DNA of 64,000 bases. It comes from Phycisphaerales bacterium (GTDB lineage Bacteria > Planctomycetota > Phycisphaerae > Phycisphaerales > UBA1924). The first letter of the stretch is position 1, and each line of letters opens with the position of its first letter. Below, piece after piece: positions 140 to 2,373 of the stretch. Under the pieces are notes generated by a model that worked only from the letters and a program-made list of their open reading frames with translations, was not told the origin of the DNA and did no database searches. The stretch covers positions 1 to 64,000 of the forward strand of contig CAJPFG010000018.1 of assembly GCA_905339235.1 (NCBI GenBank), in the 5' to 3' direction. Both the position numbers and the translations under genes were made by a program.

Positions 140-782
140 CAGCCAGCAGGAACTGAGGCTCATCAACGGAGGACGCTCCGAGGCAGACTTTGTCCCCGCG
201 CTGACCGTAATGCAGCATTACGGTGCACCGACGCGGCTTCTAGACTGGACCAATCGATTGGAAATCGCAGTGTGGTTCGCGTGCATCGATGAGCGGCGCG
301 CGCCGGGGGCGGTGTGGTGGTACTCGGCATGCGCGTTGCACGAGGCAGCCGGACGCCAATGGTCCACGAACGGAACTCCAAATCCGGAGGACCCACGCTT
401 CGACCACAAGCAGCACCTCTTCTCTGCCACAAGCGAGCCGACATTCATCCCAGTCCATCTTCAAATTGCGTTTCCCCGTGCCATCGCCCAAGGCGGGCTG
501 TTCAGTATGGCAGGGCGAATCGGGACGTATCACGATGATCTCCTTCTGCGCCTGCTAGGCCCAACGCACTTCGGGAAGATCGAGATCCCAGGTCGAGTTA
601 AGCCCAGTATTCTCAACGTGCTTCGAGATCGCGGTTTCACCGCTGAAACACTTCAGTACACCGGGGCCGACTTTCTCGGCTTCCGGCTCGCCGCACAATG
701 GAGGCGTGCGAGAACGGCGATGCCACTCACGCACCGGAACGAAAGCCGGCGCGAGCCTACGCCCCCCACGCCCTCGCCCTGA
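140..782 (+). pseudogene. FRG-domain protein, 5' end removed by an IS3 insertion
   Basis: The reading frame contains MQHYGAPTRLLDWT followed by a hydrophobic AVWFAC segment, the signature core of the FRG domain, a domain of unknown biochemistry often found in phage-defence and mobile regions. The upstream half, including the F-R-G tripeptide, is missing: the frame is open to position 36, but everything before 140 is insertion-sequence DNA read in the wrong strand. The gene therefore appears split by the IS, with its 5' part outside the window. Its last residues (TPPTPSP) are encoded by the first copy of a 58-bp repeat shared with the downstream genes, so the native C-terminus may also have been replaced. 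It could be expressed only from a start created by the IS. Confidence 0.7.
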
Positions 783-814
783 CCGCCTCGACCACCGCCG
801 TCGGCGCGATGTGG
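757..814 (+). repeat. 58-bp cassette repeat, copy R1
   Basis: It begins ctacgccccccacgccctcg and ends gcgcgatgtgg. By hand alignment it matches copy R3 (1753-1810) at 54 of 58 positions. It encodes the last residues of the FRG frame, crosses that stop codon, and runs up to the promoter-like TATGCT of the next gene. R3 is the 3' end of the tyrosine recombinase gene read backwards, so R1 may be a recombination site. Confidence 0.75.
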
Positions 815-816
815 AG

Positions 817-822
817 TATGCT
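817..822 (+). promoter_or_regulatory. Leaderless -10 element TATGCT for the zinc-ribbon gene at 829
   Basis: TATGCT ends 6 nt before the GTG at 829, so transcription is expected to start at or next to the start codon. No purine-rich ribosome site precedes the GTG. No good -35 hexamer is visible. The same hexamer and spacing precede the paralogue at 1326. Confidence 0.55.
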
Positions 823-828
823 GCTCGC

Positions 829-1290
829 GTGAAGCGCCTCGGAGCCATCCTGCGGTGGACGCTGACAGCGGGCGTCGCACTGTCCCTTCTCGCGTTTGCC
901 GCGTCCGCGCGGTGGGTCGCGGCCGCGGGCTGGGACACGATCGGCGAGACATCCGGGCGCATTGCTTGGCTCCTGCCGGGGCGTATTCGGCTGCGCTGGG
1001 AGTCCAATCCCGCCCGCGCGCCGCTCTTCTTCGGAGCATACTCGTGGGACCGGGGCGATGAGCAGTTCCTCTGGTGGGGGTCTTACCAGATGGGGGATGG
1101 CGACTTTGAACTCGAACTACCGCTCTGGATGCCCGCGGTCGCGTGCGCGCTGCCCGCCACCGTGCTGTGGGTCCGCCGAGTGAGGTCGAGGCGCGCCGGC
1201 CACTGCACCGGCTGCGGTTACTCGCTCGACGGGCTCAGGTCGGGCGCGGCGTGCCCCGAATGCGGCGCTACGCCCACTCCCTCGCCCTAA
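829..1290 (+). CDS. Small membrane protein with C-terminal zinc ribbon (cassette gene A)
   Basis: This 153-residue protein has a hydrophobic N-terminal segment (about residues 7-33), a Trp-rich extracytoplasmic-looking middle, a second hydrophobic segment near residues 100-115, then a zinc ribbon CTGCGYSLDGL...CPECG. Proteins ending in CxxCGY..L...CPECG are very common in planctomycetes; their function is unknown and none is claimed here. The GTG start at 829 was chosen because VKRLxAxLRW aligns with the paralogue's VKRLRATLRW and because of the TATGCT element 6 nt upstream; the frame is open further 5'. It is a diverged paralogue of the next gene, and its final ATPTPSP is encoded by repeat copy R2. 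Confidence 0.75.
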   Translation: MKRLGAILRWTLTAGVALSLLAFAASARWVAAAGWDTIGETSGRIAWLLPGRIRLRWESNPARAPLFFGAYSWDRGDEQFLWWGSYQMGDGDFELELPLWMPAVACALPATVLWVRRVRSRRAGHCTGCGYSLDGLRSGAACPECGATPTPSP

Positions 1291-1305
1291 CCGCCTCGAC
1301 GACCC
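1268..1305 (+). repeat. Cassette repeat, shortened copy R2
   Basis: It starts ctacgcccactccctcgccc and continues with aaccgcctcgacgacc. It matches the first part of R1 and R3 with a 2-nt gap, then diverges. It encodes the C-terminus and stop of gene A and leads into the TATGCT element of gene B, so it occupies the same place between genes as R1. Confidence 0.65.
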
Positions 1306-1313
1306 GTGCGCTG

Positions 1314-1319
1314 TATGCT
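1314..1319 (+). promoter_or_regulatory. Leaderless -10 element TATGCT for the zinc-ribbon gene at 1326
   Basis: TATGCT ends 6 nt upstream of the GTG at 1326, exactly as for the gene at 829. There is no Shine-Dalgarno sequence and no convincing -35 hexamer. Confidence 0.55.
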
Positions 1320-1325
1320 GACGGC

Positions 1326-1778
1326 GTGAAGCGGCTCCGGGCAACCCTGCGGTGGGCGTTCACGGCGGCCGCTGTCCTCATTATCCCCTGCTGGTTGCTG
1401 TCGTTGTTCTGGACCGCCGCGTTCGGCTTTCCGCCCATCGGGCTCGTCGGCCTGTATCGCGGCACCCTCGCGGTGGAGATCCCGCCGACTTGGGCCTGGC
1501 CCGGTGTGCCCGTTGTGTGGCAGCGGGAAAGCGACGAAGCGATCTGGTGGTTCTTGTGGGAAGTGGATTCGAGCGGCTTCCGCGATTTCGGAGTTCCGTT
1601 CTGGATGTTCGAGGTGACGCTGCTCGCCGTTGCTGTCCCGCTGTGGCGAGCGCACATCCGCTCGCGCAGGAACGCGAACCCCAACATCTGCAGGAAGTGC
1701 GGCTACTCACGCGCCGGCCTACCTCCGGGCACATCCTGCCCCGAATGCGGCGCTACGCCCTCCACTCCCTCGCCCTGA
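1326..1778 (+). CDS. Small membrane protein with C-terminal zinc ribbon (cassette gene B)
   Basis: This 150-residue paralogue of the preceding gene has the same plan: hydrophobic N-terminus (VLIIPCWLLSLFWTAAF), Trp-rich middle, second hydrophobic segment (VTLLAVAVPLW), then the ribbon CRKCGYSRAGL...CPECG. The GTG at 1326 aligns with the start of the paralogue and sits 6 nt after TATGCT. The C-terminal ATPSTPSP is encoded by repeat copy R3, which on the other strand is the end of the recombinase gene, so this gene and the recombinase overlap tail to tail by 26 bp. Function unknown; the two ribbons suggest metal-dependent folding rather than a recognised enzyme. Confidence 0.75.
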   Translation: MKRLRATLRWAFTAAAVLIIPCWLLSLFWTAAFGFPPIGLVGLYRGTLAVEIPPTWAWPGVPVVWQRESDEAIWWFLWEVDSSGFRDFGVPFWMFEVTLLAVAVPLWRAHIRSRRNANPNICRKCGYSRAGLPPGTSCPECGATPSTPSP

Positions 1779-1810
1779 CCGCCTCGACCACGGCCGTCGG
1801 CGCGACGTGG
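1753..1810 (-). repeat. 58-bp cassette repeat, copy R3, forming the recombinase 3' end
   Basis: This copy encodes the last 18 codons and stop of the tyrosine recombinase on the minus strand (HVAPTAVVEAVRAREWRA) and the C-terminus of zinc-ribbon gene B on the plus strand. It matches R1 at 54 of 58 positions. An attachment site placed at the 3' end of its own integrase gene would explain why the sequence is copied beside other genes. Confidence 0.75.
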
Positions 1811-2373
1811 TCCAGATAGAGAATCGTCGTGAGCAGGCTCTTGTGCCCCAGTTGCTTGCTGATAATTCCGACATCGACACCCTCGGCCCGCAGCTGCGCC
1901 GCGTGCGTGTGCCGGAACCCGTGCGCGTGGACGCGCTTCTGGACCCCCGCCCGCCGCGCGAGGTCGGGCAGCAGCCGCCGCACGTAGGCCGAGGTGACCG
2001 CCCGCCCCGAGCGCGAGCAGAAGAGCGGGGCGTCGAACGCCACGCCCAGCCCGGCCCGCTCCGCGGCCCACGCCGCCAGGAACGCCAGCGCCCCGGCGTC
2101 CACGCCCACGGTGCGGGAGCGCCCGCCCTTGCCGAAGAGCACCCGGATCGCGCCCCCGCCCGCGTCCACGTCCTTGGGGCGCAGGCACAGGGCCTCGTTC
2201 AGCCGCAGCCCGGCCCGGTACAGCACCGCCAGCAGGGCCCGGTTCCGGGCCTTGCTGAACGGCGGCCCCGGCACGGCGTCGATCAGGGCGCGGGCCTCGG
2301 CGTCCGTGAGAACCTCCGGGTGGAACCGGCGGCGGGGGCGGGGTCTGCGGGCGGCCTTCCTTCTCTTCGTCAT
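1753..2373 (-). CDS. Tyrosine recombinase/integrase
   Basis: This 206-residue protein carries the full catalytic set of the phage-integrase family: Arg in GLRLNEAL, Lys in GKGGRSRTV, HGFRH, GH in QLGHKS and the nucleophile Tyr in TILYLDHV. It is short because it lacks the usual N-terminal SAM-like DNA-binding domain; a basic segment (KRRKAARRPRPRRRF) takes its place. An AAAGGAG ribosome site precedes the ATG by 4 nt. It probably recombines the repeat that forms its own 3' end, copies of which flank the zinc-ribbon genes. It could equally be a XerC/D-like enzyme of an old genomic island; the target is inferred, the family is not in doubt. Confidence 0.9.
   Translation of the reverse strand: MTKRRKAARRPRPRRRFHPEVLTDAEARALIDAVPGPPFSKARNRALLAVLYRAGLRLNEALCLRPKDVDAGGGAIRVLFGKGGRSRTVGVDAGALAFLAAWAAERAGLGVAFDAPLFCSRSGRAVTSAYVRRLLPDLARRAGVQKRVHAHGFRHTHAAQLRAEGVDVGIISKQLGHKSLLTTILYLDHVAPTAVVEAVRAREWRA

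Follow-up and report, generated by a model that had tools for sequence, protein, structure and literature searches.

A catalytic-domain-only tyrosine recombinase in planctomycetes whose gene end recurs as a repeat beside variable DNA: a candidate gene-capture module

Comparison of a small planctomycete tyrosine recombinase with its relatives suggests that it is, somewhat more probably than not, the enzyme of a compact gene-capture module, in which a recombinase made of a catalytic domain only would use a site within its own gene, at the 3' end. Repeats next to this gene, designated R1, R2 and R3, are real copies of that 3' end, and locus comparisons indicate that variable DNA begins there. A broader proposal is put forward more tentatively, as a possibility with a little less than an even chance of being right: that this is a bacterial gene-capture platform other than the integron, which would use the recombinase's own 3' end as docking site, give the enzyme a new C-terminus with each capture, and collect mainly phage-defence genes. 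Literature searches, of incomplete coverage, found no earlier description of such a system.

The recombinase and its repeats in the window

The window, meaning the whole stretch of DNA that was analysed, covers the initial 64 kb of contig C18 in a planctomycete genome of 4.55 Mb; its features are listed in Table 1. Its first bases, 1 to about 139, belong to an insertion sequence in which the contig ends, so that the FRG gene lacks its 5' part and one side of the array is missing. The first-pass annotation had missed this interruption of the FRG gene, as well as the frequency of defence cargo and the possibility of placing a crossover within the recombinase gene.

Table 1. Features at the left end of the window, with strand and supporting evidence.
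Feature	Positions	Strand	Evidence
Insertion sequence end; truncates the FRG gene and breaks the assembly	1-139	minus	99-100% identical at 7 genome places, mostly contig ends
FRG-domain gene, 5'-truncated; candidate phage-defence gene PDC-S15	140-782	plus	PF08867 E 2.7e-11; PADLOC PDC-S15 E 8.8e-19
R1, copy of recombinase 3' end; antisense encodes FRG tail and stop	757-814	minus	54/58 to R3, E 1e-18
GTATGCTG, putative promoter-like -10 motif before zinc-ribbon gene 1	816-823	plus	sequence, common to 1313-1320
Zinc-ribbon membrane protein gene 1, GTG start 829	829-1290	plus	CxxCGY..CPECG motif
R2, shortened copy of recombinase 3' end	1268-1305	minus	34/38 to R3, 3-nt deletion, E 1.6e-6
GTATGCTG, putative promoter-like motif before zinc-ribbon gene 2	1313-1320	plus	sequence
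Zinc-ribbon membrane protein gene 2, GTG start 1326, ends inside R3	1326-1778	plus	67% nucleotide identity to gene 1
R3, recombinase's last 18 codons and stop; proposed recombination site	1753-1810	minus	end of recombinase coding sequence
Inferred crossover zone, 12-16 nt before the conserved TGG codon	1776-1780	minus	identity drop at -24 to -10 in paralogue pairs
Tyrosine recombinase, catalytic domain only, 206 aa	1753-2373	minus	PF00589 E 4.3e-29, residues 21-189
Recombinase leader, conserved CTTGCC (-35-like) box; left limit of homology between copies	2374-2453	minus	homology with the C38 copy stops at -697

The 58-bp repeat that the annotation had described as R3, with a second copy in R1 and a shortened one in R2, was confirmed. 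A search of the whole genome with R3 returned, beyond R1 and R2, one further copy (G000:C38:6709) and no other match above chance; the further copy forms the 3' end of another recombinase gene, on contig C38, whose product is 97% identical in amino acids to that of the window. It had also been proposed that the repeat encodes the C-terminus and stop of the preceding protein, and this holds for the FRG gene (TGA 780-782), zinc-ribbon gene 1 (TAA 1288-1290) and zinc-ribbon gene 2 (TGA 1776-1778), all of which have a ...TPSP terminus encoded by the antisense of R. Among 17 other zinc-ribbon proteins whose tails were read in the genome, none has this ending, so the TPSP tail can be assigned to R. 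Zinc-ribbon membrane proteins of this CxxCGYDxxGL...CPECG type have 43 matches in the genome, several of them in tandem. A TATGCT promoter had been suggested after each repeat; the promoter-like motif is present after R1 and R2, whereas R3 runs into the recombinase instead.

The recombinase itself has the catalytic domain of the tyrosine recombinases with R, K, HxxR, H and Y in place: R57, K82, H151, R154, H177 and Y186 are invariant among 16 relatives, the annotation having judged all catalytic residues to be visible, and the match to PF00589 spans nearly the whole model. The core-binding (SAM-like) domain is absent, as the annotation had held, because the open frame allows 212 aa at most and Pfam gives PF00589 at residues 21-189 and nothing else. 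The protein does not reach the curated scores for XerC (121.9 bits vs 335) or XerD (111.7 vs 329.6).

Recombinase loci and their 3' borders in other genomes

At E <= 1e-30 the recombinase is present in 47 of 163 genomes of the same family, with up to 7 matches per genome, and at a strict threshold in 8 of the 392 genomes of a phylum sample; a scan of genome contigs for close relatives gave one only. About 60 loci were compared together with their flanks. Within one genome, the copies resemble one another between the CTTG (-35-like) box and the 3' end, and beyond these limits the resemblance is mostly lost; the box is the left limit of homology in the genera whose alignments were read. Most copies have an open frame that ends just past a TGG codon.

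Comparison of these loci indicates that the recombinase 3' end is where variable DNA starts. The C38 copy and one in a same-genus relative (G005) are orthologous and collinear from -6140 to -6, then unrelated, and collinearity resumes from about +1200/+1400; the part between holds a 386-aa gene in one genome and R with a 249-aa gene in the other, and neither far border of this locus carries an R. A small gene divergent from the recombinase (L009:7441-7863, and at the same position in G005) is conserved, and is RyR-domain-like by eye only. Genome G112 has two 93% identical copies of about 7 kb (L091 and L092), a duplication that spans the recombinase and a SRAP gene; the copies diverge at +1370, and one has R at +1379. 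This genome was tried as an empty-site reference for insertions in G111 and failed, whole flanks being absent. For the C18 copy the window's histidine kinase has no orthologue in the genus at the threshold used, and there is therefore no empty site. Inspection of the recombinase borders revealed no target-site duplications. A second R within 5 kb is absent from most loci (about 45 of 55), so many inserts are without the far border that would be expected. In genus g71 (L085-L098) the far side of the variable region is marked by a 32-nt motif close to CCGTTCCCGCCGTAGTCCCGATCCCCGGCGAT, of which nearly every recombinase has a single downstream copy, at +332 to +3579 relative to the recombinase end.

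Identity between related copies falls before the gene ends, which seems to point to a crossover inside the recombinase gene. Among 50 pairs of copies from the same genome or genus, generally about 90% identical apart from the last codons, mean identity in the 15-nt window from -24 to -10 was 0.60, compared with 0.83-0.95 in the 37 preceding windows. The loss is abrupt at -24 to -20, a pattern that would be compatible with an att site in integrase coding sequence. In 14 of the 50 pairs, which are not independent and do not amount to a formal test, the drop at -24 to -10 went below third-position identity (p < 0.01); the clearest pair, L157/L158, has third-position identity of 0.92 and 4/15 in the last codons (p 4e-10). 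The TGG (Trp) codon at -8 to -6 is retained in every pair that is more than 80% identical, and beyond it the match is no better than background; no common motif was found in the DNA to the right of the crossover. Since relaxed constraint on the C-terminus should not push identity below that of near-neutral sites, exchange is the better reading, and the comparisons indicate that the last few codons have been exchanged with variable DNA while the terminal Trp codon persists. The opposite pattern was seen in a distant genome (G205), where three copies whose third positions are 60-79% identical match almost perfectly over about 40 nt spanning the stop; this, too, gives the same 3' stretch a special status. 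G205 has six recombinase copies in all among many small genes (L186-L191), and a 135-aa gene that follows the recombinase on its downstream side in L188/L189 is upstream of it in L190, as though units swapped places.

Beyond the window, copies of the repeat accompany unrelated genes at 8-9 of about 55 loci, as the first-pass annotation had anticipated for a cassette system; the large uniform arrays of such a system did not materialise, the number of extra R copies being 0-2 per recombinase. A nucleotide HMM of the full-length recombinase (587 nt) found 9 extra fragments, representing 8 distinct loci or fewer as L087 and L092 are one locus, which start at 437-536 and end at 584-586; none came from the first 437 nt, save a single 416-468 fragment in a locus with a broken recombinase gene, the one exception to the 3'-terminal rule. 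Scoring with a weight matrix built from the last 46 nt returned 10 extra matches of at least 16 bits outside the recombinase genes, all downstream and on the same strand as the recombinase, and none at that score upstream or on the other strand. Model searches of 20 whole genomes found nearly no R distant from recombinases. The extra copies are partly decayed, with variable 5' ends, and several stand directly after the stops of unrelated genes: a 123-aa gene (stop 390, R 390), a SRAP gene (1368, 1379), a 151-aa gene (538, 542) and a 236-aa gene (859, 874). Restriction of the repeat to this locus or to zinc-ribbon paralogues, which the annotation had named as a contrary outcome, was not found; SRAP, small secreted, zinc-binding and membrane proteins are encoded before R, and DinB beyond one R. 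Genes point towards the recombinase in the window and at C38, and mostly the opposite way elsewhere. In some arrays, these comparisons indicate, extra R copies mark internal borders. A stretch of about 190 nt with about 80 copies in G111 and G112 (L084:6500-6700) was considered as a repeat of interest and rejected, as it encodes the dockerin-like C-terminus of secreted proteins.

Defence cargo, a possible mechanism and its rivals

Defence genes cluster at the recombinase loci, as in a defence island. In about 27 of 53 loci, the one ORF that is longest past the 3' end of the recombinase had a specific PADLOC defence match, a count read from tables from which ambiguous helicase and regulator matches were excluded. 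The families include type I, II and III restriction-modification, CRISPR I-E and I-G, BREX and Avs2, together with OLD, SspF, HerA and DISARM/Hma-like helicases. Counted by family and not by locus, 293 PADLOC families were matched for 51 downstream ORFs vs 78 for 51 upstream ORFs, the upstream matches being mostly generic kinases and a helicase. The defence link is shown for this bacterial family only, because in a wider search, where 9 of 10 loci were external or marginal to the main set, one protein in ten was defence-positive.

Site-specific insertion at R inside the recombinase gene would most simply account for the repeat together with the exchanged last codons and the variation in cargo. 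A circular unit, consisting of one or more genes and a copy of R, would recombine with the recombinase's own R at a point about 12-16 nt ahead of the TGG codon; a fresh 3' end would come with the incoming unit and keep the recombinase intact, and the displaced 3' end would shift to the far side of the insert and become R. In the window, two such insertions could have put the zinc-ribbon genes between the recombinase and the FRG defence-like gene, and all three genes would take their stop codon from the antisense of R. Spread of the recombinase gene itself to new places would need another step. No hairpin or clear inverted core was found in R. The annotation's cassette logic, with a site embedded in the integrase's own gene, thus survives as an interpretation that draws on the 3'-terminal repeat, the unrelated genes and the variable DNA from the 3' end; integron membership and large uniform arrays are not supported. 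If the mechanism is right, cassette capture arose more than once, here with a smaller enzyme and a site hidden in its own gene; it would explain how planctomycete defence islands acquire new systems, and the recombinase 3' end would be a short query for new defence genes, namely whatever adjoins beyond it.

Some R copies retain 100-150 nt of decayed recombinase coding sequence (L109, L114), and solo or broken recombinase pieces occur (L154, L155, L156), as would be expected if complete recombinase-bearing elements had been inserted serially at one place and later lost most of their genes, leaving R as the last remains of old recombinase genes and not as sites for one-gene cassettes. We regard such accretion as unlikely, although worth keeping in view: it should have left other parts of the gene as remnants, whereas almost only the 3' end is seen, intact to the last bases, and R often follows directly after the stop of a single gene. 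It seems improbable, too, that the recombinase is a passive edge marker of a defence island whose cargo is swapped by homologous or illegitimate recombination, with similarity stopping simply where the conserved gene stops. That would suit the commonness of defence cargo, the absence of R from the far end of most inserts and the different short motif on the far side in genus g71, but identity falls before the gene end, in 14 of 50 pairs to values significantly lower than at third positions, and the extra R copies are found downstream only and in one orientation.

Within the window, the two zinc-ribbon genes are paralogous and join R in the same way, and tandem zinc-ribbon genes exist elsewhere in the genome, so that one might imagine a simple tandem duplication in which a zinc-ribbon gene was copied along with part of the recombinase end. 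As a complete explanation it is refuted, and we consider it very improbable: R1 follows the unrelated FRG gene, R accompanies unrelated genes in other genomes, and the repeats are 90% (R2/R3) and 93% (R1/R3) identical vs 67% for the zinc-ribbon genes. Duplication could account for one of the two units, and site-specific insertion at R remains the reading we prefer.

Comparison with known systems

Integrons are the standard example of single-gene capture by a site-specific recombinase in bacteria, and anti-phage cargo has been reported for them too. They resemble the present loci in that a tyrosine recombinase appears to head short arrays of unrelated genes with a repeat after each gene. However, the recombinase here is not IntI (TIGR02249 76.9 bits vs a cut-off of 265) and has no core-binding domain; its repeat is the recombinase's own 3' end, with 0-2 extra repeats, and the cargo lies on the recombinase 3' side. 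Single-strand folding of R was no better than that of shuffled sequences (z -0.4 to 1.1), and so provided no foldable attC; these two results, from the IntI model and from folding, speak against integron membership.

In size and architecture the enzyme resembles the short tyrosine invertases of the FimB/FimE type, which likewise have about 200 aa and a catalytic domain without the core-binding domain, but it scores 57 and 50 bits with the NCBIfam invertase models against cut-offs of 222 and 221, and no inverted element was seen.

Sites within the integrase gene have precedents in two systems. The "suicidal" archaeal integrases of the SSV type are a precedent for integrase fragments left behind (PMC8371274), and would share with the present family a site within the gene and gene fragments that remain as fossils; there, integration splits and inactivates the gene and the families bear Phage_integr_3, whereas here the gene stays open in most copies and only PF00589 is found. 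In the integrase of Myxococcus phages Mx8/Mx9, attP lies inside the int gene and integration makes a new int 3' end (PMC6070905). The recombination site within the integrase gene, and the consequent replacement of the 3' end on integration, are as we propose here; the differences are that a phage genome and a host attB take part there, while stand-alone genes, arrayed repeats and a minimal enzyme characterise the planctomycete loci, at which only the last few codons would be exchanged.
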